Positions 30,129-54,884 are shown, counted from the first letter of the stretch. The stretch: DNA of 64,000 nucleotides from a bacterium (GCA_015075175.1 JABTUV010000010.1:1-64000), one strand, 5' to 3'. Notes: generated by a model from the letters alone, not told the origin. Numbers and translations: made by a program.

Positions 30129-30273
30129 GATTAAGAGCAAGATTAGAGCAAGATTAAGAGCAAGATTAAGAGCAAGATTAAGAGCAAGATTAAGAGCAAG
30201 GTAAGAGCAAGAGTAAGAGAGAGTAAGAATAAGAGCAAGAGCAAGATTAAGATTAAGATTAAGATTAAGAGTA
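30129..30273. repeat. Hexameric AAGANN token tract 1
   Basis: About 145 bp of AAGATT, AAGAGC and AAGAGT hexamers, mostly alternating AAGATT and AAGAGC in the first half and AAGATT runs at the end. It fills the whole gap between ctaF and ctaC, ending ten bases before the ctaC start. On the other strand it reads as a meaningless Leu/Ile polymer. Confidence 0.9.
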
Positions 30274-30282
30274 AGACGAGAT

Positions 30283-31177
30283 ATGAGTCCCAGTACCGTC
30301 GAGCTGATCGACCGCTCATTCCACTATCTTCGGGACCTCGGTGGTGCTTCTCGGCATCACCGCGGCCATGCTTTTCTTCGTCTGGCGCTACCGCCTGAAG
30401 CGCAACCCGCTCGCCTCCAACATCGAGGGCAATGCCATGATGGAGATCGTTTGGACCGCGCTGCCGACGGCGCTGGTGATGGTGATGTTCTGGTACGGTT
30501 GGGCGGGGTATCAGTCCAGCCGGTCCGTGCCGCCGGACGCCATGCCCGTCAAGGTCACCGCCCGCATGTGGTCCTGGATGTTCGAGTACGCCAACGGCAA
30601 AGTCCACCACGAACTGTTCGTGCCCCTCGACAAACCGGTGAAATTGATCCTGGCCAGCCAGGACGTCAATCACAGTCTCTACATTCCGGCAGTCCGCATC
30701 AAGCAGGACTGCATCCCCGGGCGCGAGAGCTACCTCTGGTTCCGTCCCACCAAGCTGGAAACCTATGACATCCAGTGCGCGGAGTTCTGCGGAACCGAGC
30801 ATTCCAATATGCTTTCCAAGGTGCGCGTCGTATCGGCGTCCGACTTTGAGACCTGGTACAACACCATCGAACCGGTCGACGAGAACTCGGGCGAGCGGCT
30901 GGTGCAAATTTACGGCTGCCTGTCCTGCCATACCACTGATGGCGGCAAGAAAGTCGGACCGAGTTTCAAGGGCATCTACGGCGAGCGGCAGACGGTCCTC
31001 GTGCGGCGGCGCGAGATGAACATCGACGTGGACGACGAGTATCTGCTGGAGTCCATGCGCGAGCCCAACGCCAAGATCGTCAAGGGCTATCCGCCCAATC
31101 AGATGCCCAGCCAGGAGGGCATCCTGTCGGACGAACAGATGACCGCGATCGTGAAGTATATTCAGGAGCTGAAATAG
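30283..31177 (+). CDS. ctaC: Cytochrome c oxidase subunit II with fused cytochrome c, one frameshift near the start
   Basis: About 297 residues. The start MSPSTVELIDRSFHY is in one frame, and the rest (from about 30323, IFGTSVVLLGITAAMLFFVWRYR) is in the next, so one base is missing near 30323. Two N-terminal membrane helices are followed by the CuA domain (MWSWMFEYANGK; VNHSLYIPAVRIKQDCIPGR; CAEFCGTEHSNM with the Cys, Cys, His and Met ligands). A cytochrome c domain with CLSCH near residue 212 follows, which defines a caa3 enzyme. It accepts electrons from ACIII-linked cytochromes. A repeat tract lies directly upstream. Confidence 0.9.
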
Positions 31178-31180
31178 ATC

Positions 31181-32077
31181 ATGGCAGGCGTCGCGACAGT
31201 CGTCGTAGGAGGTTCGCGGAGTCCCCTGGGACTGGCGCTGGAGCTGGCCAAAATCCGCATCACCGCGATGGTCTCCGTGACCACGGCGATGGGCTACGTG
31301 CTCTTCGCGGGAGAAGTGCGACCGCACCTTCCGGCGGTCGTGTGCGGCGTGCTGCTGCTGGCCTGCGGCTCGGCGGCGTTCAACCACTTTCAGGAGCGCG
31401 AGATCGACGCCAAGATGACGCGCACGCGGCGCCGCCCCATCCCCTCGGGCGCGGTACGACCGGCGACGGCGCTCCTCTACGCCGCCGCCCTCATCACCGC
31501 CGGCGCGGGGATACTCGCCGCGTGTGCCACTCCCACCGCGCTGGTCTTGGGGCTTGTCTGTCTCTTCTGGTACAACGGCGTGTATACGCCGCTCAAGCGC
31601 ACGACGCCCTTCGCGGTGGTACCCGGTTCGCTGATCGGCGCGCTGCCGCCCGTCATCGGCTGGGTCGCCGCCGGCGGCTCGGCCCTGGATCCGCGCGCTC
31701 TCGCGCTGGGAGCCTTCTTCTTCATCTGGCAGGTCCCCCACTTCTGGCTGCTGCTCCTGGTTCACGGCCGCGAGTATGAGAAAGCCGGCATGCCCTCGCT
31801 CACCTCGGTCCTCTCGACCGCCCAACTGTCCCGGCTGACGTTCGTCTGGATGGCGACGACCGCGCTCGCCTGCCTGCTTCTGCCGCTGTTCGGGCTGGTG
31901 CAACACGGCTGGGCGCTGGCCGTCCTCGGGCTGGGTTCGTCTTGGCTGGTGCTCGCGTCGGCGCGGCTGTTGTCGGGATCGTTGCGGGCGTCGCTGTTCC
32001 GCGCTGCTTTTTTCGCCATCAACCTCTACGCGCTCCTGGTCATCCTGGTCCTTTCCGTCGAAGGTCTCCTGCAGTGA
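31181..32077 (+). CDS. ctaB: Protoheme IX farnesyltransferase (heme O synthase)
   Basis: 298 residues, UbiA-superfamily membrane prenyltransferase with about eight to nine helices. It adds a farnesyl group to heme B to give heme O on the way to heme A. Motifs seen are the Asp-rich NHFQEREIDAKMTRTRRRPIPSG and YTPLKRTTPFAVVPGSLIGALPP, plus FFFIWQVPHFWLLLL, all typical of CtaB/CyoE. It starts three bases after ctaC and ends the respiratory operon. Heme A synthase (ctaA) is not in the window. Confidence 0.93.
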   Translation: MAGVATVVVGGSRSPLGLALELAKIRITAMVSVTTAMGYVLFAGEVRPHLPAVVCGVLLLACGSAAFNHFQEREIDAKMTRTRRRPIPSGAVRPATALLYAAALITAGAGILAACATPTALVLGLVCLFWYNGVYTPLKRTTPFAVVPGSLIGALPPVIGWVAAGGSALDPRALALGAFFFIWQVPHFWLLLLVHGREYEKAGMPSLTSVLSTAQLSRLTFVWMATTALACLLLPLFGLVQHGWALAVLGLGSSWLVLASARLLSGSLRASLFRAAFFAINLYALLVILVLSVEGLLQ

Positions 32078-32081
32078 CTCT

Positions 32082-32158
32082 GGAGTGCGGCTGCTTGCTG
32101 CCGCCGGCGGGAGCAGGCCCCGTCCCTTGCCCACGCGGCAGCAAGCTGCCGCAGTCCC
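32082..32158. repeat. Inverted repeat with GCGGCAGCAAGCTGCCGC stem
   Basis: GACTCTGGAGTGCGGCTGCTTGCTGCCGC is mirrored by GCGGCAGCAAGCTGCCGCAGTC after about 30 bp, just after ctaB. It could stop transcription of the operon but has no following T run, so it is more likely a dispersed palindromic repeat. Confidence 0.5.
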
Positions 32159-32227
32159 AAAAAGAGAGGCGCACCGTAGCGCGCCTCCCAACGGGTCAGG
32201 TATATGTGCGCGGTGCGCACCTACGGG

Positions 32228-32416
32228 TTAAAACAGCGCGTAAATGAAGGGCGCCAGTTGGCTGCCCGCCGCGGTCACCAGGATCACTCCCAATAAGAGA
32301 AGAAAGACCACGATCGGCCCCAACCACCACTTGATTCCATCAGAACTCGCCGAGAACCGAGCAGTTCGCCGTGCGACTGAGTACGTTTCTTTCCCGCCCG
32401 CGCCATGACGGCCCAC
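32228..32416 (-). CDS. Small DUF5989 membrane protein
   Basis: 62 residues, with one C-terminal membrane helix. The segment KWWLGPIVVFLLLLGVILV followed by SQLAPFIYALF is the hallmark of the DUF5989 family, small membrane proteins often near carbamoyltransferase or exopolysaccharide export genes. The N-terminal half does not look family-like in this frame. An ATG at 32405 in another frame gives MARAGKKRTQSHGELLG, closer to family starts, so one indel near 32350 is likely. It stands alone between ctaB and the DUF2961 gene. Confidence 0.6.
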   Translation of the reverse strand: MGRHGAGGKETYSVARRTARFSASSDGIKWWLGPIVVFLLLLGVILVTAAGSQLAPFIYALF

Positions 32417-32554
32417 CTCGCCTCAAGTTGCTCCTACCCTAGCACAAGCGTCTCCCCTCAAGCGGTCCCTACCCCGCGGGTTTCCTGACACCATCCCCCG
32501 GTCGATATCCTCAACACGACGAACCCTTCTCATTCCACTACCCTTGAGGCGACC

Positions 32555-34048
32555 ATGCAGCGGAAGATCACCCTCGCGCTTCTGGCGGCGTTGCTTGTCA
32601 TCCCGACCGCCGCCCGCAGCGTGCTCGACACCGACCTGTCCAACCTGTGGGAGCTGCGCGACTTTGCCGTGGATCGCATCAGCAGCACCGCCGCGGACGG
32701 CTCCAACCACGACTGGAAGACCATCCCGCCGGGCGAGACGCTGGTCCTGGCCGATCTGCCCGGCCCCGGCATGATCCACCACATCTGGGTCACCATCGCC
32801 AGCGACGATCCCATGCACCTCAAGAACATCGTCCTGCGCATGTATTGGGACGGCGAGACCGTGCCCAGCGTACAGGCGCCCATCGGCGACTTCTTCGGCC
32901 TGGGGCACGGCCAGGTCTACTTCGTCAACTCCGCGCCCATCCAGGTGGGCTCCTTCAAGGGCATGAATTGCTTCTGGCCCATGCCCTACCGGAAGCGCGC
33001 GCTCGTTACCGCCGAAAACCAGGGCTCCGTCGAGTGCCGCAGCTTCTATTATTACGTTGACTATCGCAAGAAGGTGAAGTTGCCCAAGAAGGTCGCCACC
33101 TTCCACGCCTGGTACAACCAGGCTTATCCCGCCGACCGGCAGACGGACTACGTCATCATGGAGGCGGTCGGCAAGGGGCACTACGTGGGCACGAACCTGT
33201 CCGTGCAACTCAACACGCCCGGCTGGTGGGGCGAGGGCGACGACAAGATCTACATCGACGGCTCGCCGGCTCCCAGCATGAAGGGCACGGGCAGCGAGGA
33301 CTACTTCTGCGGCGCGTGGTGCTATCGGGATGCGTTTACGTTCCCCTATTTCGGGGCGCCCCTCTTGAAGGCGGGCGACCTGCACGCGCGCGAGGCGCTG
33401 TGGAACGTCTATCGATACCATATCCTGGATCCCATCACGTTCGAGAAAGACATCAAGGTGCATATCGAAACCGGCGCCTGGCCGGGGACCAACGACCGCC
33501 GGCCCTTCACCAACAACTACTCGTCGGTGGGCTACTGGTATCAGACCGAACCGCACCAGGCGTTCCCGCCGCTGCCCTCCGCGCCGGAGCGCATCGGCAA
33601 GGTGATCGCGTGGGAGACCGATCCCGTCGCGCCCGTCAAAGAGGGGGAGATGATGCCGGTGCGCGCCAAGAGCGCGGAGGGCGTGGAGATCGCCCCGCAG
33701 TCGCTGGGGAACGTGCGCTGGTCGATGAACACGCAGCAGTGGCTCAAGTTCACCGCGCCGGGCCAGTGGGCGGAACTGGAATTCAGGATGGACAAGGCAG
33801 GCCCGCGCAACGTCACTCTCGTCATCACCAACGCGGCGGACTACGGCATCGCCAAGGTCTCCATCAACGGCCGGGTGCTTGAATCGAACGTGGACTGCTA
33901 CCGGCCGGAGGGCATCGCCGCGCGGCGTGTTGCGCTCGGACAGGTGGAACTGCTGGAGGGGGCCAACACGCTGCGCATCGAGGTCGTGGGCAAAAACCCC
34001 GCCTCCAGCGGGTATCTTTTGGGCGTGGACTGCGTGAGGGTCGAGTAG
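32555..34048 (+). CDS. Secreted DUF2961 protein (glycoside hydrolase family 172-like)
   Basis: 497 residues with a short signal peptide (MQRKITLALLAALLVIPTAARS). DUF2961 features are DLPGPGMIHHIWVTI near 65, LRMYWDGE, PIGDFFGLGHG near 110, and the conserved GTGSEDYFCGAWC block near 245 with its Glu/Asp pair, then NVYRYHILDPITFEKDI. Characterised GH172 members act on arabinofuranosyl or fructose dianhydride linkages. The C-terminal 100 residues form a beta-sandwich-like domain. TTGAGG precedes the ATG. It stands alone. Confidence 0.88.
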   Translation: MQRKITLALLAALLVIPTAARSVLDTDLSNLWELRDFAVDRISSTAADGSNHDWKTIPPGETLVLADLPGPGMIHHIWVTIASDDPMHLKNIVLRMYWDGETVPSVQAPIGDFFGLGHGQVYFVNSAPIQVGSFKGMNCFWPMPYRKRALVTAENQGSVECRSFYYYVDYRKKVKLPKKVATFHAWYNQAYPADRQTDYVIMEAVGKGHYVGTNLSVQLNTPGWWGEGDDKIYIDGSPAPSMKGTGSEDYFCGAWCYRDAFTFPYFGAPLLKAGDLHAREALWNVYRYHILDPITFEKDIKVHIETGAWPGTNDRRPFTNNYSSVGYWYQTEPHQAFPPLPSAPERIGKVIAWETDPVAPVKEGEMMPVRAKSAEGVEIAPQSLGNVRWSMNTQQWLKFTAPGQWAELEFRMDKAGPRNVTLVITNAADYGIAKVSINGRVLESNVDCYRPEGIAARRVALGQVELLEGANTLRIEVVGKNPASSGYLLGVDCVRVE

Positions 34049-34100
34049 GGTGAGTCGAGAGCACGGCATGAAGGGCGGCTTGGCGGCGTTGCGCCGCCGC

Positions 34101-34170
34101 GCCTCTCGATACGGCCCCGAAGTTACCCTCGCCTCCCATGAAGGTGCAGCGGCGGGGCCTACTCGAGGAC
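34101..34170. repeat. Inverted repeat element CTCGATACG...CTACTCGAGGAC, copy 2
   Basis: GCCTCTCGATACGGCCCCG is paired with CGGGGCCTACTCGAGGAC about 30 bp later; same family as 27311-27383. Confidence 0.75.
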
Positions 34171-34241
34171 ACGGCTTACATTTTCGCGTTCCGTTCTGAA
34201 AGAAGATGGTCAAGGATAGTTCCAAAAGAAAGAGAATCCGA

Positions 34242-34339
34242 GTCCTCGAGTAGCGGTCCGACGAGCGGCGTGTCTCAATGCAAGTAGTTTCTTGGGGCCG
34301 CGCCTTGTCCCGAGTAGGCCGAAGGCCGTATCGAGGGAT
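34242..34339. repeat. Inverted repeat element, copy 3 (opposite order)
   Basis: GTCCTCGAGTAGCGGTCCG comes first and CGAGTAGGCC...GGCCGTATCGAGGG last, so the element is reversed compared with copy 2, its neighbour. Confidence 0.7.
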
Positions 34340-34402
34340 ATCGCGAAGATGGCATGGATGCGACCGGGCCGCCTGCCGAGCTGCCTCTGATTCTACGGGA
34401 AC

Positions 34403-35836
34403 ATGGTGGAGATACTTTTTCAACCCGTGCATCAACTGACCGAGCTACTGCGGAGGAAAGAGCTCTCCTCCGAAGAGCTGGTGCGCGCCGCGCTGGAGCG
34501 CATCCGCGCGCGCGACGGGGAGATTCACGCCTTCAACTGCGTGCTGGAAGAAGAGGCTCTGGCAACCGCGCGGCAGGTCGACCAGCTGCGCGCGCGCGGC
34601 GAAATCCTGCCCCCCTTCGCCGGCGTCCCCATCGCCCTCAAGGACAACCTCTGCATGGCCGGCACGCGCACCACCTGCTCCTCGCGTATGCTTGAAAACT
34701 TCGTCTCGCCCTACGACGCCACGGTCGTCGCCAAAATCAAAGCCGCCATGCTTCCCATTCTGGGTAAGACCAACCTGGACGAGTTCGCCATGGGCAGCAG
34801 TACGGAGAACTCGGCCTTCGGGCCGACGCGCAATCCGCACGATGTGACGCGCATTCCCGGGGGCTCGTCGGGCGGTTCGGCGGCGGCGGTCGCCGCCGGC
34901 ATGGCCCCCTGGGCGCTCGGTTCCGACACCGGCGGCAGCATCCGCCAGCCCGCCGCCCTCTGCGGCGTCTGCGGCATGAAACCCACCTACGGCCGCGTCT
35001 CCCGCTACGGCCTCGTCGCCTTCGCCTCCTCGCTGGATCAGATCGGTCCCTTTACCCGCGACGCCCGCGACATGGCCGCGCTCCTCGGTATCATCGCCGG
35101 CCACGATCCCCGCGACAGCACTTCCATCAACCAGCCCGTGCCCGACTATGCGCGCGAGCTGTCCGGCGACGTCTCGGGCATGAAGCTGGGCATCCCGAAG
35201 GAGTATTTCGTCGAAGGCAATCATCCCGAAGTGGAGGCGGCAGTGCGCGCCGCCATCGCAACGATGGAGCAATTGGGAGCAGAAGTGCGGGAAATTTCCC
35301 TCCCCCACACGTCCTACGCCACTCCCGCTTACTATATTATTTGCACCGCCGAGGCCAGCAGCAACCTGGCGCGCTACGATGGCGTGGTCTATTCGCATCG
35401 CACCCGCGAGCCGGTCGCCGACATCGTCGAGATGTTCCGAAAGAGTCGCACCGAGGGCTTCGGCGACGAGGTGAAGCGCCGCATCATGCTGGGAACCTAC
35501 GTACTCTCGGCGGGTTTTTATGACGCTTATTACCTGACCGCCTCGCGCGTGCGCACGCTGCTCTGCCGGGACTTTGAGGCCGCCTTCAAAGAGGTCGATC
35601 TCGTGGTCTGTCCCACCTCGCCCATCCCCGCGTTCAAACTGGGCGAGAAGACCGCCGATCCCTTGGAGATGTACCTGTGCGACGTCTACACCACGTCGCT
35701 CAACCTGGCGGGCCTGCCGGGGATGTCGATACCCTGCGGGAAGACCCGCGAAGGACTGCCCATCGGCGTGCAGATCATCGGCGGGGTGCTGAGGGAGGGT
35801 GAGATTCTGCGCCTGGCGGATGCCTACCTGGGATAG
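34403..35836 (+). CDS. gatA: Glutamyl-tRNA(Gln)/aspartyl-tRNA(Asn) amidotransferase subunit A
   Basis: 477 residues, amidase-signature enzyme that releases ammonia from glutamine for transamidation of mischarged Gln- or Asn-tRNA. The catalytic Lys is in PIALKDNLC; the Ser residues are in GGSSGGSAAAVAAGM and GSDTGGSIRQPAALCG. FLPGTYVLS-like region reads IMLGTYVLSAGFYDAYY, typical of GatA. The C-terminal LPIGVQIIGG stretch is canonical. gatB and gatC are not adjacent. The last 79 bases are duplicated at 37709-37787 behind the next gene. Confidence 0.93.
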   Translation: MVEILFQPVHQLTELLRRKELSSEELVRAALERIRARDGEIHAFNCVLEEEALATARQVDQLRARGEILPPFAGVPIALKDNLCMAGTRTTCSSRMLENFVSPYDATVVAKIKAAMLPILGKTNLDEFAMGSSTENSAFGPTRNPHDVTRIPGGSSGGSAAAVAAGMAPWALGSDTGGSIRQPAALCGVCGMKPTYGRVSRYGLVAFASSLDQIGPFTRDARDMAALLGIIAGHDPRDSTSINQPVPDYARELSGDVSGMKLGIPKEYFVEGNHPEVEAAVRAAIATMEQLGAEVREISLPHTSYATPAYYIICTAEASSNLARYDGVVYSHRTREPVADIVEMFRKSRTEGFGDEVKRRIMLGTYVLSAGFYDAYYLTASRVRTLLCRDFEAAFKEVDLVVCPTSPIPAFKLGEKTADPLEMYLCDVYTTSLNLAGLPGMSIPCGKTREGLPIGVQIIGGVLREGEILRLADAYLG

Positions 35837-36057
35837 GCGCGATCGCGGGGGGGGAGCGGGCGCGCGGTTGAATTCGGCGCCACGGCGCTTGCGACCGCAA
35901 GTCTGCGCCGCTCCCATTCATGACGAGGTTCTCCTTGACAGGGATTGGGATGCGGGCGAAAATAAGTGAACGCGACGGCGCGCAACGTGGCGCGCGACGG
36001 AGAGGCGACGAGGTGCTTTACCTTCCAGGGAAGCCGGACTGAAGAAGGAAGCAGGGG
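35837..36057. other. Upstream region of the radical SAM gene
   Basis: About 220 bp without a gene; holds the promoter candidate at 35935. No coding signal or further repeat is seen. Confidence 0.4.
35935..35963 (+). promoter_or_regulatory. Candidate sigma-70 type promoter for the radical SAM gene
   Basis: A perfect TTGACA at 35935-35940 is followed after 17 bases by GAAAAT (35958-35963). The gene starts about 95 bp downstream. Confidence 0.4.
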
Positions 36058-37671
36058 ATGGCCAACATCGTTCTGATATCGCTGTACGACCGAAACGCTT
36101 ACGCCCAGCGGCTGATGTCGGCGAACCTGAAGAAACACGGGCACCGCTGCCATCTCGTTTTTCTCAAGCGTTACGAGACGGATTGGAGCTATCAGCTGCA
36201 GCTGGACGAGGGCGAATATCCGTGGATGGGAGTCAACGAAGAGGGGCGGGTGTTCAAGTACGCGTCGAATTCACGCATCAGCGCGCGCGAGTTGGAATTG
36301 TTGACGGAGTTGATCGAACGCCTGAAGCCCGACTTCATCGGCATGACGGTCAATACGCCGCTGCGGGTCCAAAACCGGAAGGTGACGCAGTGCCTGAAGG
36401 ATCGGTTCAATATCCCGGTGGTGTGGGGGGGATACGACCCTACGGTCAACCCCCGGCAGTGCCTGGATTTGTGCGATTACGTGTGTATCGGGGAAGGCGA
36501 CGAGACCATTCTTGAGCTGGCGCGTTGCGCGGACGAGCGACGGGACTTCGATGAGGTATGCAATCTGGCCTATCGGCGCAGGGACGGCCACGTGGTGATG
36601 AACCCGCGCGCGCCGGTGGAGCAGAACATCGATGTTTATCCGTGGCGGGACGACAGCCCCGAGGACAAGTACTTCATCGACGACGACCGGCTCATCGAGC
36701 ACTATCCGGTCGTCAACGACCGTCCGCCCGGTTCCTATCAGACGATGAGCGCGCGGGGATGTCCCTACCAATGCTCGTACTGCTGCGAGGCGACACTGAA
36801 GGAGTTGTACAGCGGGGAGAAATTCCTGCGCCGGCGGTCGCCGGAGGACATGGTGGAGGAGCTGGCGCAGGCCAAGCGGCGACTTCAACTTAACCACATC
36901 CGTTTCGAGGACGAGATCTTCGGCATCCACCTGGGCTGGTTGAAGCGGTTCCTGCCGCTCTACCGGGAGAGGATCGGCCTGCCGTTCGACGCCTACCTGT
37001 ATCCGAGTCCGCAAATCGAGGAGATTCTCACGGTATTGAAGGAGATGGGATTGGCGTTCTGCTGCCTGGGGCTGGAGTCGGGCAGCGAACGCATCAACAA
37101 GAAGGTCTTCGAACGGGTGTACAACCGCGAACTGTTTCTGAAGACCGTGCGGGTGTGCAAGGAATTGGACATCCCCTTTTATACCGATGTGATCACGTAC
37201 AACCCCTATGAGGACGAGGAAGACTTGCGCAAGACGCTGGACGTGCTGCTGGACATGCGGGGCGGATACACCATGTGCATCAACAAGCTTTTCGTGCTGC
37301 CCGGTACCAAGATGGCCGAACAGATGGCCAAGGACGGTCGCACGCTGCAACTGGGGCCGGAACGGGAGCGGTTGTTCAACTTCTACTGCCGCCTCTTCTG
37401 GCTGGCGTCCTATTCCCCGCACGCGCGACCGCTGGTGCGCCTTCTGCAGGCCGCTCCCGGTTTGCGTCGCCGGCCGGAGCTGATCAACCCCAAACGTCTC
37501 AAACCCTGGGTAGCGAGCGGCTTCGGGTATTCGTGGCTGAAGGCACACACGCCGCCGCCGCTCAAGCGCGGACTGAAGAAACTGGGACTAGGCCCCCGCG
37601 GAGGCGCGCCCGTACCCGCCGGCGGGCGCACTCTGGCCCAGGAAAAGAACCCCGATCCTGCCTGTCGTTAG
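36058..37671 (+). CDS. B12-binding-domain radical SAM protein
   Basis: 537 residues. Residues 1-170 form a cobalamin-binding-like domain (MANIVLISLYDRNAYAQRLM; IGMTVNTPLRVQNR; VVWGGYDPTVNP; VCIGEGDETILEL). The radical SAM [4Fe-4S] motif CPYQCSYCC follows near 237-245. The barrel continues with HIRFEDEIFGIHLGWLKRFLPLY, LGLESGSERINKKVFERVYNR and DVITYNPYEDEEDLRKTL. The TIM-barrel part resembles BchE/HpnR-like B12-dependent enzymes that act on lipids or cofactors; the substrate cannot be told. A C-terminal basic, Pro-rich tail of about 60 residues follows. It is a single gene bounded by gatA and a duplicated gatA end, which hints at insertion as a unit. Confidence 0.85.
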   Translation: MANIVLISLYDRNAYAQRLMSANLKKHGHRCHLVFLKRYETDWSYQLQLDEGEYPWMGVNEEGRVFKYASNSRISARELELLTELIERLKPDFIGMTVNTPLRVQNRKVTQCLKDRFNIPVVWGGYDPTVNPRQCLDLCDYVCIGEGDETILELARCADERRDFDEVCNLAYRRRDGHVVMNPRAPVEQNIDVYPWRDDSPEDKYFIDDDRLIEHYPVVNDRPPGSYQTMSARGCPYQCSYCCEATLKELYSGEKFLRRRSPEDMVEELAQAKRRLQLNHIRFEDEIFGIHLGWLKRFLPLYRERIGLPFDAYLYPSPQIEEILTVLKEMGLAFCCLGLESGSERINKKVFERVYNRELFLKTVRVCKELDIPFYTDVITYNPYEDEEDLRKTLDVLLDMRGGYTMCINKLFVLPGTKMAEQMAKDGRTLQLGPERERLFNFYCRLFWLASYSPHARPLVRLLQAAPGLRRRPELINPKRLKPWVASGFGYSWLKAHTPPPLKRGLKKLGLGPRGGAPVPAGGRTLAQEKNPDPACR

Positions 37672-37708
37672 CGCCTTCCCCCTCCGCCGTGGATCGCGCT
37701 CGCCGACC

Positions 37709-37787
37709 GCCCATCGGGCTGCAGATCATCGGCGGGGTGCTGAGGGAGGGTGAGATTCTGCGCCTGGCGTACGCCTACCAGGCGTAG
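37709..37787 (+). pseudogene. Duplicated 3' end of gatA
   Basis: 79 bp nearly identical to 35758-35836, the end of gatA, in the same reading frame and orientation. It codes PIGLQIIGGVLREGEILRLA and then differs in the last few codons, ending at TAG. Two changes lie near the start (GGGCTG for GGCGTG) and several in the last 15 bp. The copy has no start codon of its own. Confidence 0.85.
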
Positions 37788-37788
37788 A

Positions 37789-38020
37789 TTATCTTAATCT
37801 TAATCTTGCTCTTGCTCTTGCTCGCAATCTTAATCTCACTCGTCATCGAGCATCGATTACGAGTCTCTTACTACGGCGGTCAGGAAATACCTGGCTTGGG
37901 AAGTCGGGCGCAGGCGCAGCACGCTGCGCAACTACGGCGTCTCGATGCCAGGTAAAGCGTGGCCGACGTAATAATACGAATACGAGTACGAGCACGAGCA
38001 CGATTACGAGTACGATACGT
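37789..38020. repeat. Hexameric token tract 2 (two blocks)
   Basis: Block 37789-37835 has CTTAAT/CTTGCT units (reverse complement of AAGATT/AAGAGC), then CGATTACGAGTC. Block 37967-38020 has ACGAGT, ACGAGC and ACGATT units on the plus strand. Together they show both flavours, AAGANN and ACGANN, between the duplicated gatA end and the arylsulfotransferase-like gene. Confidence 0.85.
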
Positions 38021-38055
38021 CGTCGCAGGTTGATTGATGGGAAAGGAGCATGTCC

Positions 38056-39747: not shown

Positions 39748-39763
39748 GGTGGGTTTTACCCAC
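39745..39763. repeat. TAGGGTGGGTTTTACCCAC palindrome
   Basis: The arylsulfotransferase-like gene stops within TAGGGTGGGTTTTACCCAC, a hairpin that recurs at 61565-61625. Here the TAG stop is the first base triplet of the repeat. Confidence 0.6.
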
Positions 39764-39780
39764 TGAGGCCGATCGTGCTC

Positions 39781-39990
39781 GTGCAAGATTAAGATTAAGA
39801 GCAAGAGTAAGAGTAGGAGCAAGAGTAAGATTAAGAGTAAGATTAAGAGTAAGATTAAGAGTAAGATTAAGAGTAAGTAGATTAAGGTAGATTGACCGGG
39901 AAACAAGATTGAATTAACAGATTAAGACATTAAGTTAGTTAGCAGAGCAAGATTAAGGTCAGATTAAGGTAAATTAGGAGTTAAGAGTAA
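39781..39990. repeat. Hexameric AAGANN token tract 3
   Basis: A clean part (39786-39876) of AAGATT, AAGAGC, AAGAGT units with a regular AAGATTAAGAGT alternation is followed by a decayed part (to 39990) with the same base composition. It separates the convergent ends of the arylsulfotransferase-like gene and the efflux operon. Confidence 0.9.
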
Positions 39991-40005
39991 AATGGTACGT
40001 ATTGG

Positions 40006-41280
40006 TTATTCGTGGCGCAGGGCCTGGATCGGGTCCATGTTGGCCGCGCGGGTTGCGGGATAGACCCCGAAGACCACCCCGATGCCCGCCGAGATGGTGA
40101 AGGCCAGGATGAGCGAGGCCGGCGTCACGATCGTTTTCATCTGGGCGAAGTAGGTCACGAGCGCGGGAATGATGATGCCGACGATGACGCCGATGATCCC
40201 GCCGCCCGCCGACAGTACCACGGTCTCGACCAGGAATTGGACCACGATGTGGCGGCGCTTGGCCCCCAGCGCGCGCCGGATGCCGATCTCGCGCGTGCGC
40301 TCGGTGATGCTGGCCAGCATGATGTTCATGATTCCGATCCCGCCCACGAGCAGGCTGATGGCGGCGATGCTGCCCAAGACGATGTTGTAGAGCCGCTTGG
40401 TCGCCTCCGCCTGGCGCAACAACTCCAGCGGCACGATCACTTCGTAATCTTCCTTCTTGTGCGTGGACTTGAGCAGATGCCGCACGATGTTGGCCGTGCC
40501 CAGCACCTCCTCCGAGTTCTTGACCACTACCGTCAACTGGTGCAATTGCACCTGTTCGGCGTTGCGCGAGCCGGCGGAAGTCTGGATGTCGTACTCGCCG
40601 ATGCGCTCGATGGAGGTGGTCAGGGGAACGTGGGCGAAGTACTCCAGGCTCTCCTGGCTGGTTTCCTTGCCGGTTGCGGCCAGCTTGCCCTCCAAGACGC
40701 CGACGACCTCGAAGTAGTGCTCGCCCGCCTTCACCGTCTCGCCGATGGGGTCCTCGCCGGGAAACAGCGCCCGCGCCATGGACAGGCTCAACACCGCCAC
40801 CGGCTTGCGCTCGTGCATGTCGTTGTACGAGAGATACCGCCCGTACAGCCGCTGGTGCGGTTGTGAACTGTAATACCAGGGCACCGTCGCCACCAAGTAG
40901 CCGGTCGTCTTGAAGGTGGCGTTGCGGAATTCCTGCAACACCCGCCGCACCGGCACGACCACGTCCACGGAGGGGATGGTAGTGGCCAGGCGCTCGGCGT
41001 CCTCATACTCCAGCCCGTAGGCGAGGACCATGCTACGGGTGGTAGTGCTGGCGCTGCGGTCCTCGGAGGGTTTCACGCTGCGGATGAGGATGTTGTGGCT
41101 GCCCAGCTGGCGAATCTGCTCCAGCGCCTCGGCCTTGCTGCCCTCGCCGATAGCCAGCATGGCGATCACGCTGCACACGCCGAACACGATGCCGAGCACC
41201 GTCAGGAAGGTGCGCAGCTTGTGCAGCAGGAGGCTTTTCACGCCCAGCTGCACGATCCGCCAGAGCTGAAAGGCATGCAT
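40006..41280 (-). CDS. MacB/FtsX-type ABC transporter permease
   Basis: 424 residues. One N-terminal helix (LRTFLTVLGIVFGVCSVIAMLAIG), a large periplasmic MacB_PCD domain, and three C-terminal helices (IAAISLLVGGIGIMNIMLASITERTREIGIRRALGAK; VETVVLSAGGGIIGVIVGI; SLILAFTISAGIGVVFGVYPATRAANMDPIQALRHE) follow the MacB/FtsX plan exactly. ATG at 41280 follows GAGGGAG. It works with the ATPase at 41423, the adaptor at 42142 and the outer membrane protein at 44036, expelling an unknown substrate across the envelope. Confidence 0.92.
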   Translation of the reverse strand: MHAFQLWRIVQLGVKSLLLHKLRTFLTVLGIVFGVCSVIAMLAIGEGSKAEALEQIRQLGSHNILIRSVKPSEDRSASTTTRSMVLAYGLEYEDAERLATTIPSVDVVVPVRRVLQEFRNATFKTTGYLVATVPWYYSSQPHQRLYGRYLSYNDMHERKPVAVLSLSMARALFPGEDPIGETVKAGEHYFEVVGVLEGKLAATGKETSQESLEYFAHVPLTTSIERIGEYDIQTSAGSRNAEQVQLHQLTVVVKNSEEVLGTANIVRHLLKSTHKKEDYEVIVPLELLRQAEATKRLYNIVLGSIAAISLLVGGIGIMNIMLASITERTREIGIRRALGAKRRHIVVQFLVETVVLSAGGGIIGVIVGIIIPALVTYFAQMKTIVTPASLILAFTISAGIGVVFGVYPATRAANMDPIQALRHE

Positions 41281-41307
41281 CGAAATCAACTCCCTCGCAA
41301 CAACTCG

Positions 41308-41405
41308 CTATCTTAATCTTACTCTTAATCTTACTCTTAATCTTGCTCTTAATCTTGCTCTTACTCTTACTCTTACTCTTAATCGTAATCTTGATGGTGT
41401 TCGTC
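41308..41405. repeat. Hexameric token tract 4
   Basis: CTTAAT, CTTACT and CTTGCT units (reverse complement of AAGATT, AAGAGT, AAGAGC). It lies between the ATPase and permease genes of the efflux operon, so it is transcribed with them. Confidence 0.9.
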
Positions 41406-41422
41406 ATCGGGCAGGACTAGGA

Positions 41423-46023: not shown

Positions 46024-46047
46024 AACTTAATTTACAGGAATTAAGTT
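46024..46047. promoter_or_regulatory. Perfect inverted repeat AACTTAATT-N6-AATTAAGTT
   Basis: Arms of nine bases (46024-46032 and 46039-46047) match perfectly around a six-base centre. It lies 24-47 bases upstream of the sigma-54 type promoter, so it is a strong candidate binding site for the operon's own response regulator. Confidence 0.6.
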
Positions 46048-46070
46048 GCGTTGTGAAAATCGTCACGGGA

Positions 46071-46086
46071 TGGCACGGTGATTGCT
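46071..46086 (+). promoter_or_regulatory. Sigma-54 type promoter (TGGCAC-N5-TTGCT)
   Basis: TGGCACGGTGATTGCT has GG and GC separated by exactly ten bases, the defining -24/-12 spacing, with close match to the consensus TGGCACG-N4-TTGC. The first gene of the redox operon starts 35 bases downstream, and the operon encodes an NtrC-class activator. Confidence 0.7.
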
Positions 46087-46120
46087 TGAGACTCGTTCAG
46101 CACGCGAAAGGAGTTCGATC

Positions 46121-46786: not shown

Positions 46787-46825
46787 CCCGACAGGCGACC
46801 GACATTCCGATCTTGAGGTGACATC

Positions 46826-47575: not shown

Positions 47576-47614
47576 CCGACGCGGGCAAGCGATTTGCATA
47601 AGGAGAATGCGATC

Positions 47615-48796: not shown

Positions 48797-48810
48797 CGCC
48801 TCCGATTGCG

Positions 48811-48929
48811 ATTTCGTAATCGTGCTGGTAATCGTAATCGTAACTCCTGCTCGTGCTCGTAATCGAGGTTCGATTACGAGCACGAGCATGATTAAGATTA
48901 CGATTGGGATAAAGATTACGATTGTGAGG
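48811..48929. repeat. Hexameric token tract 5
   Basis: Plus-strand CGTAAT/CGTGCT units, then inverted to CGATTACGAGCACGAGCATG, then ATTAAGATTACGATT. Both orientations meet near 48867, so the tract can form a hairpin. It lies between the NrfD/HybB gene and the sensor kinase gene, inside the operon. Confidence 0.88.
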
Positions 48930-48939
48930 ACGATGCGCG

Positions 48940-49587
48940 ATGCCTGCCGCCTGGCGTCTGCCGCTCGGGGTCAAACTGGTCCTCAGCCTGGTGGTAAGCC
49001 TGGCGGTCGTGGAGGTGGTGTTCGGCGTGGTCCACTACCGCAACCACCGCCACGCCTTGGAAGAGCGGCTGAAGTTCTCCGCCGAACGCCTGGGGAACGT
49101 GGTCAAACGCAGCCTGCGCGACGGCATGTTGGAGAACCAGCGCGACCAGCTCTTGCGCGAGATTACCACCATCGGGGCGGAGCCGGGCATCGAGAAGATT
49201 CGCGTCTTCGATCCCCTGGGTGAAGTGCAGTATTCCTCGGACCCCTCGGAAATCGGCCACACCGTGGACAAGGCGGCGGAGGCCTGCTACGGCTGCCACG
49301 CGCAGGAGGAACCGCTGCATCGGCTGGACCGTCCCGACCGCACCCGCATCTTCGCGGGCGAATCCGGCTACCGCCTGCTGGGCCAGATTGTACCCATCGA
49401 AAACGAGCCGGATTGCTCCTCCGCACCCTGCCACGCCCATCCCGCCGACCAGGTGATCCTGGGCGTAATCGACATGGTGCTGTCGCTGGAGGACGTGGAC
49501 CACGAGCTGGCCCGGTCGCGCCGCCGCTACCAGGCGGTGGTGGTGATCTCCTCCTGTTGCCCGCGGGGATCGCGATTCTTTAGGTGA
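48940..49587 (+). CDS. Sensor histidine kinase, N-terminal sensor part with two heme-binding motifs
   Basis: 215 residues, the first part of a kinase split by a frameshift. A membrane helix (LVLSLVVSLAVVEVVFGVV) is followed by a periplasmic domain with CYGCH (CXXCH) and CSSAPCH (CX4CH), both plausible heme c sites, so it may sense redox state or a gas. The reading frame turns to a short tail near 49545, where a second membrane helix (VVVISS...GIAIL) should continue into the next gene. In the downstream frame a TAG at 49581 also intervenes. Confidence 0.75.
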   Translation: MPAAWRLPLGVKLVLSLVVSLAVVEVVFGVVHYRNHRHALEERLKFSAERLGNVVKRSLRDGMLENQRDQLLREITTIGAEPGIEKIRVFDPLGEVQYSSDPSEIGHTVDKAAEACYGCHAQEEPLHRLDRPDRTRIFAGESGYRLLGQIVPIENEPDCSSAPCHAHPADQVILGVIDMVLSLEDVDHELARSRRRYQAVVVISSCCPRGSRFFR

Positions 49588-50573
49588 ATATCTTCGTGAA
49601 CCGTCCGGTGAATGGGTTGATTGAGGCGCCGCGGCGCGTCGCCGCCGGCGATCTGGAGCCGGCCGGCTCGCGCTACAGCCACGATGAGATCGGCCAGTTG
49701 GCGCGTTCCTTCGACGCCATGACGGTGGACCTGGCCAAGGCGCGCGCCGAGTTGAACGAATGGGCGGAGACGTTGGAACAGCGGGTGGAGAGGAAGCGCG
49801 AGCAGTTGCGCCAGGCGGACGCGCGCGCCATGGCCGCGGCCCAGATGGCGACGGTGGGAAAGCTCGCCGCCAGCGTCGCGCATGAAATCAACAACCCCCT
49901 CGCCGGCATTCGCACCTACGCCCGCCTGCTCCTGCGCCGTCTTTCCGCCCAGGGCAGCCTGCCCGCCGACGAGGCCGCCCTGGAGGGCCTCTCGCTGATC
50001 GAGAGCGAATCGGCCCGCTGCGGGGAGATCGTCAAGCACCTGCTCCAGTACTCCCGCCCCGGCACGGAACAGATGGCCGACAGCGACCTCAACCAGTTGG
50101 CGCGCGAGGCGGCCCGTCTCATCCAGCACCAGACCCAGGTGCAAAACCTGCGCTTCCAGGTCGAGTTGACGCCGGAGTTGCCGCGCGTGCGCTGCCATCC
50201 CCAGGAGATCAAGCAGATGCTCCTGGCGCTCCTGATCAACGCCTGCGAGGCCAGCCGCGAGGGCGGGGGACTCTTCCTGCGCACCCGACCCGGCGCCGAC
50301 GGCTACGCCTGCCGCCTGGAGGTCGCCGACGAAGGCTGCGGCATGAGCCCGGACATCGCGGACAGGATTTTCGAGCCGTTTTTTACTACCAAAGAGGCGG
50401 GGAAGGGCGTGGGACTGGGACTGGCGGTAGTGGCGCAGATTGTGCGGCGGCACGGCGGCCGCATCCTGGTCGACACCAGCCCCGGCCACGGCGCGACCTT
50501 TACCATCGACCTGCCCGCCACTCCGCCGGAAGATCCCCCCAGTGACGCTCGAGGAGGCCCGGATGGTGCATAA
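49584..50573 (+). CDS. Sensor histidine kinase, HAMP and catalytic part
   Basis: About 330 residues. A HAMP domain (VNIFVNRPVNGLIEAPRRVAAGDLE), a coiled coil, then a HisKA domain with the phospho-acceptor His in VAHEINNPLAGIRTY and a HATPase domain with N, G1 and G2 boxes (LLALLINACEAS, EVADEGCGMSP, FFTTKEAGKGVGLGLAVV, GGRILVDTSPGHGATF). It continues the sensor at 48940. Start at GTG 49584 immediately follows an in-frame TAG, so the open frame is probably not an independent gene. It overlaps the response regulator by 11 bp. Confidence 0.82.
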   Translation: MNIFVNRPVNGLIEAPRRVAAGDLEPAGSRYSHDEIGQLARSFDAMTVDLAKARAELNEWAETLEQRVERKREQLRQADARAMAAAQMATVGKLAASVAHEINNPLAGIRTYARLLLRRLSAQGSLPADEAALEGLSLIESESARCGEIVKHLLQYSRPGTEQMADSDLNQLAREAARLIQHQTQVQNLRFQVELTPELPRVRCHPQEIKQMLLALLINACEASREGGGLFLRTRPGADGYACRLEVADEGCGMSPDIADRIFEPFFTTKEAGKGVGLGLAVVAQIVRRHGGRILVDTSPGHGATFTIDLPATPPEDPPSDARGGPDGA

Positions 50574-51909
50574 GCCCCGCATTCTGATCGTGGACGACGA
50601 GGAGATCGTGCGCAAGTCGCTGGCCGGATGGTTTACCCAATCCGGCTACGAGGTCGAGGCCGCCCCCGGCGGCAAGGAAGCCCTCAAGCTGGTCGCCGAG
50701 CGTCCCTTCGATCTCTATTTCCTCGACATCAAGATGCCCGGCATGGACGGCCTGGAACTGCAGCGCCGCATCCGCCAGGCGCAGCCCGACGCGACCGTCA
50801 TCATCCTCACCGCTTACGGGACGGTCGATACCGCCGTGCAGGCGCTCAAAGACGGCGCCTATGACTTTCTCTCCAAGCCCTTCGACCCCGAGCACGTCGA
50901 GGCCCTGGTGCGACGCGCGCTGGAGCGCATGGACCTATTGGCCTCCCGCAAGCACCTGCAGCGCGAAGTCGAGGAACTGACCGGCATGGGCCGCATCGTC
51001 GGCCAGAGTCCCGGCATCGAGACGGTCCGCCAGATGATCACGACCGTGGGGGGGACCGACAGCACGGTCCTCATCCGGGGCGAATCCGGCACGGGCAAGG
51101 AGCTGGTGGCGCGCGCGATTCACGACACCAGCCCCCGCCGCTACATGCCCTTCATCGTCGTCAACTGCGGCGCCTTGCCGGAGGGCGTCCTGGAGAGCGA
51201 ACTCTTCGGCCATGAGAAGGGCGCCTTCACCAGCGCCGCCGGCCGCCACAAGGGCCGCCTGGAACTGGCCGACGGCGGGACTCTCTTTCTGGACGAGATC
51301 GGCGACATCTCGCCCAAGACCCAGGTTGATCTTCTGCGCGTGCTGGAGGACAAGCAGATCGTGCGCGTGGGCGGCGACCGGCCCATCCCCGTCGATTTCC
51401 GCGTGGTCGCCGCAACCCACCGCGACTTGGAGGAGCAGGTGCAAAACGGCGCCTTTCGGCATGATCTCTACTATCGCCTGCGGGTCGTGGAGATCTTCCT
51501 GCCGCCGCTGCGCGACCGCCTGGAGGACCTGCCGCTTTTGTGCGAGCACTTCCTGGATCAACTGGCGCAGAAGCTTGGCAAGCCGCTGGAGAACCTGCCG
51601 TCGGCGACCCTGTCGATCCTGAAGGGCTACCACTGGCCGGGCAATGTGCGCGAGTTACGCAATGTATTGGAGCGCGCGGCGGTAGTCGCGCCGAGCGCGC
51701 TGATCCTGCCCGAGCATCTGCCGCATCCGCTGGCGCCCGCCAAGACCCAGGAAATCGCCGGCGCCAGCCTGGCCGACGCCGAGAAGGCGCACATCGAAAA
51801 AGTACTCGCCCAGGTGGACTGGAACATCTCGCGCGCCAGCCGCATCCTGGAGATCGACCGAGCGACCCTGTACAACAAGATCAAGCGGTATGGGCTCTCG
51901 CGGCAGTAG
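50563..51909 (+). CDS. Sigma-54-dependent response regulator (NtrC family)
   Basis: 448 residues. Receiver domain (1-120) with acidic pocket in ILIVDDEE and phospho-acceptor Asp in YFLDIKMPG, Lys in LSKPFD. AAA+ domain with Walker A GESGTGKE, GAFTSA loop (the sigma-54 contact, usually GAFTGA), Walker B GGTLFLDEIGD and arginine finger region. C-terminal Fis-type helix-turn-helix (NISRASRILEIDRATLYNKIKRYG). It overlaps the kinase gene and has GAGGAGG upstream. It probably activates the sigma-54 type promoter at 46071 that drives its own operon. Confidence 0.95.
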   Translation: MVHKPRILIVDDEEIVRKSLAGWFTQSGYEVEAAPGGKEALKLVAERPFDLYFLDIKMPGMDGLELQRRIRQAQPDATVIILTAYGTVDTAVQALKDGAYDFLSKPFDPEHVEALVRRALERMDLLASRKHLQREVEELTGMGRIVGQSPGIETVRQMITTVGGTDSTVLIRGESGTGKELVARAIHDTSPRRYMPFIVVNCGALPEGVLESELFGHEKGAFTSAAGRHKGRLELADGGTLFLDEIGDISPKTQVDLLRVLEDKQIVRVGGDRPIPVDFRVVAATHRDLEEQVQNGAFRHDLYYRLRVVEIFLPPLRDRLEDLPLLCEHFLDQLAQKLGKPLENLPSATLSILKGYHWPGNVRELRNVLERAAVVAPSALILPEHLPHPLAPAKTQEIAGASLADAEKAHIEKVLAQVDWNISRASRILEIDRATLYNKIKRYGLSRQ

Positions 51910-52444
51910 GCGCCCCATCCCGGTGCGACTGGTGCGCGTGGGTGAGGTTCCGCCGGAAGTGCTGGAGTTTCTCGCCTGGACGCTCTCCGAAGACGGGGTC
52001 TTCGCCCTCGCAGAGGGGGAGCCGCTGGCCGTCGCCGATTTCGCCTACGATGTCGGGCGCGACCAGTGGAATGCGCTGCTGCTCCTGGACGCCTTGCATA
52101 CGCGGCTGGACGAGGCCGGCGGCAAGCTCTTGGGGATAGCGGGTTTCGACCTTTTTCTTCCCATCATGACGCACGTCTACGGGGCGGCGGAGACGGGGGG
52201 GGCGGCGGCGATCCTCTCGACCTACCGCCTGCGTCCCGAGTACACCGGCGGCCCGCCCGACGCCGATCTCTTTCTCTCACGCTGCCGCAAAGAGGCGCTG
52301 CACGAACTCGGCCACACCCTCGGCTTGGTGCATTGTCGCAACAGCGCCTGCGTGATGTCGTTCTCGTCGGCGGTGGAAGCGGGGGACTTGAAGCGGATGA
52401 GTACTGCTGGAGCGAGGCGGCGGCTGGGTAAGGGTTTGGCGTAG
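51890..52444 (+). CDS. Archaemetzincin-type zinc metalloprotease
   Basis: 184 residues, starting 20 bp inside the response regulator gene. The archaemetzincin zinc site is complete: HELGHTLGLVHC followed by the Cys-x4-Cys-Val-Met block CRNSACVMSFSS, with the Met-turn. GPPDADLFLSRCRKEALHELGH is typical. The C-terminus should carry another CxxC zinc knuckle, but this frame lacks it; a shift near 52400 gives YCWSEA, so one indel may have removed it. Substrates of archaemetzincins are unknown. Confidence 0.8.
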   Translation: MGSRGSRRPIPVRLVRVGEVPPEVLEFLAWTLSEDGVFALAEGEPLAVADFAYDVGRDQWNALLLLDALHTRLDEAGGKLLGIAGFDLFLPIMTHVYGAAETGGAAAILSTYRLRPEYTGGPPDADLFLSRCRKEALHELGHTLGLVHCRNSACVMSFSSAVEAGDLKRMSTAGARRRLGKGLA

Positions 52445-52833
52445 CAGCGGCAAGATGTCGCCGTTACGGGCCTCGCCGGGCATCAGGTGCAACATTTTGG
52501 GAACATTTCGCCCACCGGCAGCGTCTATTAACCGACCGGGGAGCGGCTCCGGCTCCATGCCGGCCCTGACCTCGTCAGAGCCTCCCGACCGGACGGTTCG
52601 CGGCCCGCTGATTTTCTGGACAAGGCGTTTTCTGCGTAGAATCAATCAACGGTGCCGGTCGGTAGACCGTCCGGAATGGTGTACTCGCTTTTCTCCCGCC
52701 CCGTGGCCCTACCGGCCTGGCAATGAAAACCCGGTCCTGTACGTATATGCGATGGTAACGGGCGCCGCCCCAATACCGGAGATGACGCCCGCCAGGAATT
52801 GAGATCAGTCTTGGAGATCGTTCCGGGAGGGCC
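52445..52833. other. Intergenic region, no feature seen
   Basis: About 390 bp without a credible gene, RNA or clear repeat; a GGGAGG lies just before the receiver remnant at 52834. Confidence 0.4.
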
Positions 52834-53458
52834 ATGCAACCTCGCAACGTGCTCATCATCGACGACAACCAGCACAACCTTTCGGGGTTGCGCGACAGCG
52901 TGCGCAAATTGGGCCACCGCGTAAGCAGTACCAACCAGTGGCGCCAAGGCCTGGCCAGGCCCGCACCGAGCGCCCTGACGTGGTCATCCTGGACGTGATG
53001 CTGCCCGAGCTGAACGTCCCCGAGTTCTGCAACATCCTGAAAAGTTACACGGTGACGCGCACCATCCCCATCATACTGGTAGGGCCGAAGGGCAGCGCGG
53101 ACACCTTCATCTACGGCAACGTGGCGCACGCTGAGTTCTTCGTGGTGGACGCCTCAATCCCACGGACCTGGCGGCGGACCTGTACTTTCTCTTCGAGTGG
53201 AAGTTCCAGGTTCCCGACGAGAACCTGCCCATGCTGCGACTGATCCAGCCGATTCGTTATGACATTCGCCAGAAGCGGGCCACGCTCAAACCCGAGCCGG
53301 CGGTCAAGACGCCCGGCGTCCTGCCCCGGAAGCCGCGCGTCTGGACGTGCTGGACGCTCCCGGACTTGCAGACCCTTGCCAAGATGGTCACCAACCTAGC
53401 AACCCGCCTGAGGCGCTCATCAGCGTGCTGGGCGCCACGATGTGATCCGCCGCGGTGA
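52834..53458 (+). pseudogene. Response-regulator receiver protein, frameshifted
   Basis: The start MQPRNVLIIDDNQHNLSGLRDSVRK is a receiver-domain start behind GGGAGG. The frame is lost near 52960, and the rest continues in another: RPDVVILDVMLPELNVPEFCNILKSY with the phospho-acceptor Asp, and VGPKGSADTF with the conserved Lys. After about 53160 it shifts again (DLYFLFEWKFQVPDENLPMLRLIQP). At least two indels break it. No output domain is seen, so the parent was a stand-alone receiver with a C-terminal extension. Confidence 0.7.
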
Positions 53459-53516
53459 AATCGATCAGAAACCGATGAAATCCAGGAGGTCTCGGACAAA
53501 GAGGTCAACTGGATCT

Positions 53517-53585
53517 AGCACGATTACGTTTTGAGATTACGAATCACGAATCGCAATCGTACACTTACCCGTAATCCTGATCCAC
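53517..53585. repeat. Hexameric token tract 6 (decayed)
   Basis: GCACGATTACG, GATTACGAATCACGAATCGC and CCCGTAATCC units; shorter and more degraded than the others, between the receiver remnant and the DUF2225 gene. Confidence 0.6.
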
Positions 53586-53786
53586 GGACCGTCCATGTTC
53601 GCCGCCTGTAAACGCCTATCCGCCGATGAGGCGCGAAGATCAGCCGCCCGTAGTTGCGCAGCGTGCTGCGCCGAGCCGGACGCGCAGCGTGCGGGGCGCA
53701 GGGCAGGGACGAGGGGCTGATTCTGAAGATGGGCTCGGACCGCAGGCGGGCCGGTCGCGCAAATTGACGATGCCCTCAGCCACCGT

Positions 53787-54742
53787 TCAGGAGCTTCGCG
53801 GCTGTTCTTCGGCCCGAGTGGTCACCTGGGCGGAGTTTGCGGTGGCCAGCGCCTGGCGAAAGGATTCAATCGCCGGGTTTGTCGCCCAGCCGCCGGTGCA
53901 GTTCGCCCATACGTAGAGAAACTCGCCCATGAGGGCGTCCGATACCTGTTGGGCCGCCGCGCCTCCTGGTAGAGGACGAGCGCGCGGTGCTGGAAGAACT
54001 GCTCGTCGGCGATGAGGGCCAGCTCACGCGCGATTTTCTCGCGCAACGACGCATCTGCCGCGCGGCCGGCCTCCGAAGCGGCGCCAAGATTTCGCCGCGG
54101 CTGCGGTAGAGCGATGCCGGCGAAGTAGGTTCGCGCGCCGCTCCTCGGCGGCTTCGCTCGCACCGCCGCCGATCTCTGCCCCTGACGCAAGGGCCGATAC
54201 TGCGGCGCCAACTCCCTCGTCAGCTCGGCCAACGCCAAAAGCTCCGCCAGCCCCTCGAACTCCGCCTCGTCATCCTGTGTCCACGCATGTGTCAACCGGC
54301 AGGCCCAGGAACCCAGGAGCGCCAGGTCGCCCCGCTGCAGGGCGGTCCTGTCCAAAACCTCATAACAGGCCAGCGCGTTCTTGTACTTGTCCGCCGCCGC
54401 ATAGAGCCGCTGGTCCTCCGTGGCGCCCGCCGGTTTCGGCGCGACCAGCTCCCGCCGCAAGCGCTCCTTCTGCGCGTCCGTCAACTTGACCTCAAAGTCC
54501 GCCTCCATGCCCGCGTATCCGCAGCCCGGACACACCCAGACGACCACCGTCGGGGGCTGCTGGCCCAAAGCGTGCGGGCACAGGTCGCGGTCCTGGCCGC
54601 CCAGGTTGTTGGTCTCGACCACGCGAAAAGCGGAAAACCCTCGTCCGTCCAACGGACAGTGCGCTCGGGTTGCTTCCAGGGTCGTCGCCGAAACAAGCAG
54701 GGGGAGGAGGACAAGACCGGAGATAATGAGAAGTCGTAGCAT
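53787..54742 (-). CDS. DUF2225 protein with signal peptide, frameshifted near the C-terminus
   Basis: About 315 residues. A signal peptide (MLRLLIISGLVLLPLLVSATT) is followed by a DUF2225 core: CPLDGRGFSAFRVVETNNLGGQDRDLCPHALG and VWVCPGCGYA, four Cys in two pairs that likely bind a metal. The middle is helical (tetratricopeptide-like). At about 53966 the frame changes; the better continuation is AAQQVSDALMGEFLYVWANC then NPAIESFRQALATAN, stopping at TGA 53789-53787. Function unknown. It is a single gene between repeat tracts. Confidence 0.72.
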
Positions 54743-54779
54743 GGCTTCGAGCCGCCGGCATCTCGGCCGGCCCGCATCG

Positions 54780-54884
54780 ATTACGATTCGTAATCTTAAT
54801 CGTAATCGCAATTGTAATCCTGCTCGTGCTCGCCAATCGTAAACGAGAATCCTTTACGAGCACGATCACGAGTACGATTGTGGT
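54780..54884. repeat. Hexameric token tract 7 (inverted)
   Basis: Begins with TTACGATTCG, runs through CGTAATCGCAATTG and CTGCTCGTGCTCGCC, then turns to GTTTACGAGCACGATCACG and AGTACGATT. As in tract 5, the two halves face each other, so it can form a hairpin. Confidence 0.82.

Follow-up and report, generated by a model that had tools for sequence, protein, structure and literature searches.

Gene-ward polarity of degenerate hexamer arrays in the intergenic DNA of unrelated bacteria

Arrays of the hexamers AAGANN and ACGANN are oriented towards genes. On the strand that reads AAGA/ACGA, the 3' end adjoins a gene boundary, and this boundary may be a start codon or a stop codon. A sequence-only reading of the window, i.e., the whole 64,000-nucleotide stretch of DNA analyzed here, had described seven tracts of such words. 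Beyond that description, we find the gene-ward polarity, the absence of arrays from divergent gaps in the genome of the window (G000, a 4.98 Mb draft from an uncultured bacterium, 84% complete and compared here without close relatives) and the recurrence of the arrays in unrelated phyla. Judged from the sequences, there is about an even chance that the tracts are arms belonging to a non-coding intergenic repeat of the fold-back type, which is dispersed and has been reshaped by short duplication.

Tracts in the window

All seven tracts that had been reported are present in the sequence at the positions given for them. From these positions, the tracts would be transcribed, as the sequence-only reading held. 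Runs of A[AC]GA followed by TT, GC or GT, with words no more than 30 nt apart, contain up to 20 words in the window, whereas Markov-1, Markov-2 and Markov-3 simulations of the window give runs of at most 3 words. The tracts are intergenic, as had been claimed, since predicted genes cover 4 of the 768 bases of the higher-scoring window tracts. The coding exceptions, which lie outside the window tracts, include a glutamine-rich ORF and an apparently spurious small ORF. The TRF period in the tracts is 6 and 12. An Rfam scan of the window gave no matches at the gathering threshold, and a tRNA search in the window found none.

Tract 1 (30125..30280, plus strand) is a single purine arm of the AAGA type in the COX4/COX2 gap of the caa3 oxidase operon. 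It ends 2 nt before the ATG at 30283, and COX2 likely starts at this position, 2 nt after the tract. From this ATG, COX2 reads as MSPSTVELIDRSFHYL and then as FGTSVVLLGITAAM in another frame (30283-30345), which is an apparent frameshift, either real or an assembly error. Tract 2 has two arms. The left, pyrimidine arm (37791..37848, minus strand) lies 3 nt past the TAG of the ORF at 37275-37787, and the right, purine arm of the ACGA type (37968..38016, plus strand) lies 39 nt ahead of the point where an arylsulfotransferase/dockerin gene is predicted to start. Between the arms is a GTAG-type palindromic repeat (37871..37938, minus strand), an element that also precedes the arrays at C1:91142 and C1:119857. 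The amidase gene closes with an 83-bp segment (35754-35836) that recurs with 90% identity at 37705-37787, as the end of a second ORF located downstream of the radical SAM gene. Only this second copy is followed by tract 2, which begins immediately after it.

Tract 3 (39783..39993, plus strand; regular core 39785-39877) lies between convergent genes and consists of one purine arm, whose end is 12 nt away from the stop of the permease gene on the minus strand. Tract 4 (41303..41409, minus strand) is a single arm with AAGA words in sense; its neighbors are an ABC ATPase gene (stop 41423) and a MacB/FtsX-like permease gene (start at about 41280-41289). The left arm of tract 5 (48814..48865, minus strand) is 17 nt past the NrfD-like stop codon, and 5 nt separate its right arm (48871..48934, plus strand) from the start codon that follows. 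The left arm of tract 7 (54788..54832, minus strand) is 45 nt from the predicted start of a DUF2225 gene, and its right arm (54854..54879, plus strand) faces a CarD-like gene. Tracts 5 and 7 were said to invert in the middle so that they can fold. This is confirmed, because as single DNA strands the two arms form a hairpin in tract 5 (z -9.5) and also fold together in tract 7 (z -5.4), whereas the single-arm tracts 1 and 4 have no fold signal (z 0.5 and -0.2). Tract 6 (53517-53585, here delimited to 53517..53582, unstranded) is weak; it is short and degenerate, has four words and shows the opposite arm order, purine then pyrimidine. A GTAG-type palindrome, GTAGTTGCGCAGCGTGCTGCGC, lies near it (53650..53673, plus strand). 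A tandem array of another kind, with a 57-bp unit (GAAGATTTCTCCCTGCGGTCGAAATGACA...), occupies window positions 16829-17193, and its GTCATTTCGACC motif recurs near the arrays at C1:48953 and C1:279193.

Word alphabet and word order

The hexamers are not confined to the window. The pattern (AMGAKY)x4 matches G000 574 times, and the reversed control gives 0 matches. In the 1.19 Mb of G000 that were read directly, 41 arms exceed the score threshold, as against 2 in the reversed sequence. The sequence-only reading had proposed that the last two bases of a word are almost always TT, GC or GT. In the window tracts, TT (41), GC (21) and GT (20) make up 82 of 97 words (85%), and 15 words carry other pairs; elsewhere in the window, A[AC]GA is followed by TT in 3%, GC in 10% and GT in 2.5% of cases. 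Because the seed pattern already contains the KY pair, the alphabet figures for the wider genome were taken from a separate pair-neutral scan (TT 40%, GC 26%, GT 13%, TG 3%, TC 3%), while the loci of other genomes were still picked by their KY matches and do not form a random sample. Minor words with TC (AAGATC/ACGATC), TG and TA occur in the arrays. Given the 15 other pairs among 97 words and the TC and TG pairs found genome-wide, the alphabet is restricted yet not strictly one of three words. It consists of TT and GC, which are coupled, together with GT, and TC, TG and TA are minor. The coupling is seen in the shortage of TC, which occurs 11 times in G000 where independence predicts 57, and in the four other genome sets 8, 1, 61 and 9 times where 67, 14, 90 and 21 are predicted, respectively. 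Avoidance of GATC was rejected as the cause of the rare TC. This is because GATC on C1 shows only a mild deficit (5208 vs 6146 expected), and TC is common in Acidobacteria arrays.

The word order of the arrays is not free, since it contains 6- and 12-bp duplications and a component common to different loci. The same word recurs at a lag of 12 bp more often than expected in G000 (0.44 vs 0.28) and in Acidobacteria (0.46 vs 0.26), and in Desulfobacteraceae LH_M58 (G029) the excess is at the 6-bp lag (lag-1) instead. Thus, short tandem duplication acts on the arrays. Alignments between arms score higher than those of word-shuffled arms in G000 (23.1 vs 19.8), in G029 (31.2 vs 27.3) and in the Acidobacteria genome G031 (38.1 vs 22.0); the excess in G000 is modest, and it comes from pairwise comparisons that are not independent. 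There is also a gradient along the arm. In G000, the TT/GC counts change from 20/39 at the center end to 35/4 next to the gene (Fisher p 3e-8), and in G029 the gradient is opposite (p 1e-5). Because order and gradient are shared across loci, the loci are not independent products of slippage, and the common order and gradient point to copies of one ancestral order. In G000 and G029, two arms from one locus resemble each other no more closely than arms taken from separate loci. Hairpins are therefore not kept perfect in these two genomes, which rules out perfect hairpin maintenance.

Orientation and distribution among genomes

In five genome sets, 46 arms point toward and 9 away from the nearest boundary where this is a start codon (p 4e-7), and 67 point toward and 16 away where it is a stop codon (p 1e-8); these p-values are optimistic, since arms within one genome are not fully independent. 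Gene calls were made by a codon-usage script, and start positions depend on the caller but stop positions do not. Many single-word matches (e.g., AAGATC in Pseudomonas, ACGAGC runs), which look like coding repeats, were excluded from the polarity analysis. In tandem gene pairs, sense arms lie directly before starts and antisense arms directly after stops. Gaps with two arms have the order pyrimidine then purine in 34 cases and the reverse in 1 (p 2e-9). The 31 array gaps in the 1.19 Mb of G000 comprise 27 tandem, 4 convergent and no divergent gaps, although divergent gaps hold 23% of intergenic bases (p 3e-4); a few divergent array gaps exist in the other genome sets. Replichore orientation was rejected as the cause of the orientation, as the C1 arrays, inspected by eye, are mixed on both strands.

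The polarity is clear in G000, LH_M58 and Acidobacteria. It is present in Desulfobacterales HSG2, where it comes from few arms, and it is weak in the small PVC/Riflebacteria set taken alone (15 toward, 8 away). Polar hexamer arrays were thus found in G000, Desulfobacterota and Acidobacteriota, while most relatives have no arrays. For example, none of 13 other genomes of the same phylum as G000 has a four-word match, 22 of 26 genomes around LH_M58 have no five-word match, and in a set of 20 genomes centered on an array-rich Acidobacterium only three, counting that one, match five words in a row. A scan outside the phylum found at least 116 stretches in many phyla. The genome of the culturable Chthoniobacter flavus contains at least one such tract (L128). 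In a scan of viral contigs, 75 stretches (L301-L375) have five AAGAKY words in a row.

The words were not found as strings in a literature search, and nothing relevant was found on degenerate hexamer or fold-back intergenic repeats, in both cases among literature that included few subscription papers. One known parallel is the TAACTGA heptamer, which is repeated in intergenic DNA of Beggiatoaceae, Cyanobacteria and Bacteroidetes (PMC4679880). These repeats are also short-word intergenic arrays that are patchy over unrelated lineages, near starts and biased in orientation. In BOGUAY, they have essentially one 7-base word in two to six copies and one inverted repeat, and 147 of 170 sets are directed toward a start codon and 12 toward a stop (PMC4679880). 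In contrast, the hexamer arrays approach stops (67) at least as often as starts (46), and two-arm units are common among them. The STRR heptamers of heterocystous cyanobacteria are likewise degenerate, intergenic tandem arrays of short words. Their words and period are unlike those of the hexamer arrays, and they are not known to show gene-ward polarity.

Origin of the arrays

If the tracts are arms of a fold-back repeat, the unit would consist of a pyrimidine array, a center of 0 to about 470 nt and a purine array, and GTAG-type palindromes or further inverted word arrays would often lie in the center. Units or half units would spread by copying and build up in the short gaps of tandem or convergent gene pairs, with selection tolerating them only away from promoters. 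Since a unit would end in an array on either side, the AAGA/ACGA strand would have its 3' end beside starts and stops alike. After arrival, point mutation and tandem duplication of 6 and 12 bp would remodel the arms. As a consequence of this remodeling, the arms of one locus would diverge, while a loose ancestral order and the TT/GC gradient would persist across loci. We favor the fold-back repeat since it explains the arm order, the polarity of single arms, the common word order and a filled gap. This gap separates the convergent pair 15925-17454/17903-18703 of the array-bearing locus L170; it is 448 bp long and contains both arms and other word tracts. In the array-free relative G035, the orthologues overlap by about 13 bp. 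The G035 gap is not a clean pre-insertion site, because the distance to G035 is large (protein identities of 41% and 59%), and a deletion in G035 is a possible source of the near-empty gap. No target-site duplication was seen, the L170/G035 comparison being too divergent to show the junction. In favor of the fold-back repeat, array regions in Acidobacteria match dozens of other sites with roughly 70-97% identity. Elsewhere, two Acidobacteria differ in the direction of one gene that is flanked on both sides by gaps rich in word arrays (L170 6250-7770 in G031, L300 in G034), which suggests recombination between inverted intergenic repeats.

Several observations speak against the fold-back repeat, among them the weak polarity in PVC/Riflebacteria and the modest word-order signal in G000. 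Neither G000 nor G029 shows a perfect palindrome of the kind that fresh copying would leave, and many loci are single-armed. No mobilizing gene was found in a survey of PF01797 (Y1/RAYT). The arrays resemble MITEs and other fold-back elements in being non-coding intergenic units with inverted ends (34 of 35 two-arm cases) and no transposase gene of their own. They differ in having no fixed terminal inverted repeat sequence and no visible target-site duplication, and in an arm length that varies by whole words.

In LH_M58, the centers of two-arm gaps hold further inverted word arrays (such as AACCACAGAG...CTCTGTGGTT and TCGTAAAAAGC...GCTTTTTACGA), and other families there have one arm order each (CACAGAG 7:0, CATGAAG 6:0). 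We tentatively consider a cross-phylum class of intergenic repeats. Here, inverted arrays nested within each other, with a separate word family for each, would line the gaps between genes and share a fixed gene-ward polarity and a putative, laterally moving machinery; on these sequences such a class is possible, though less likely than not. At the Acidobacteria loci L168, L170 and L177, intergenic DNA contains more than the hexamers and consists largely of several degenerate word families (GGGGCTC/GAGGCTC, CGGACAT/CGGACTT, CCCAGGTCCC and ATTCACC).

Another explanation, which we regard as unlikely, is that each tract is a degenerate microsatellite that arose at its own locus by replication slippage and point mutation and survived in gaps as coding sequence is intolerant of it. 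The limited alphabet would then reflect a founder word and local duplication. Like microsatellites, the arrays are head-to-tail strings of short units that change length by whole units, and the lag excess at 6 and 12 bp and the nearly complete restriction of the window tracts to non-coding bases agree with this. Orthologous arrays in G031, G027 and G034 differ by words and by word-length gaps and indels, as slippage would have it. When word order was compared at the same locus, as had been proposed, one array was unchanged word for word between two Acidobacteria genomes that are about 94-96% identical, which slippage at each locus would not lead one to expect; one of the two has an extra 95-bp duplication. 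Further, microsatellites would be neither oriented to genes nor similar in order from locus to locus. Neither the polarity, the 34:1 arm order nor the cross-locus word order and gradient is predicted, and the coupling of TT and GC with depleted TC, common to all five genome sets, also speaks against slippage. The earlier claim that slippage alone is insufficient is thus borne out.

Somewhat less likely still is selection at the RNA level. Here, the arrays would provide an unstructured A/G-rich leader before starts and a pyrimidine-rich stretch after stops, where a TC every 6 nt could form a putative Rho-loading site. The location fits, since arrays lie a median of 16 nt before starts in G000 and 9 nt after stops, and divergent gaps are avoided; the TAACTGA repeats of Beggiatoaceae also lie just upstream of starts (PMC4679880). 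However, one word set, reverse-complemented, fills both positions, which two separate roles would not need, two-arm hairpins would mask an unstructured site, and most related genomes have no arrays. The roles suggested by the sequence-only reading (RNA-binding arrays, nucleoid protein sites and replication-dependent expansions) gained no direct support.

We consider it improbable that a polymerase, templated or untemplated, added polar KTRMTC words to the 3' ends of breaks that were then joined. Extension of both ends would give the pyrimidine-then-purine order at 34:1, and the two arms are indeed independent in G000 and G029, but neither the cross-locus word order nor the position of single arms, which lie nearer the gene on their 3' side in 18 of 22 cases in G029 and 29 of 34 in Acidobacteria, would follow.

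Ordinary REP/BIME elements spread by RAYT transposases are the least probable source. Such elements carry GTAG or CGTC tags and are dispersed in intergenic DNA of several phyla, mostly in tandem and convergent gaps (PMC3733652), a niche shared with the arrays. They often occur in opposite-orientation pairs that can fold, as in two-arm gaps, and GTAG-type palindromes immediately precede some arrays in G000, although they are separate from them. The arrays are not REP, as they have no fixed tagged palindrome of 20-40 bp, or tag of their own, and do not track RAYT genes; their arms are word arrays of variable length, and at either side of a gap they keep one fixed orientation to the gene boundary. 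RAYT was also rejected as the cause on copy number. In drafts that may be incomplete, there are 2 PF01797 copies in G000, several in many array-free relatives (up to 24) and no Y1 transposase match in HSG2, the array-richest of the genomes counted (1194 matches).

A single orientation rule at starts and stops in unrelated bacteria means that the arrays are not random debris. The same words and the same rule in unrelated phyla suggest a kind of intergenic repeat DNA that is widespread and apparently undescribed. In practical terms, the hexamer arrays can confuse assembly, the calling of gene starts and homology searches. The findings raise the question of which process puts identical hexamer words, in the same direction, into the genomes of distant phyla when most relatives lack them.
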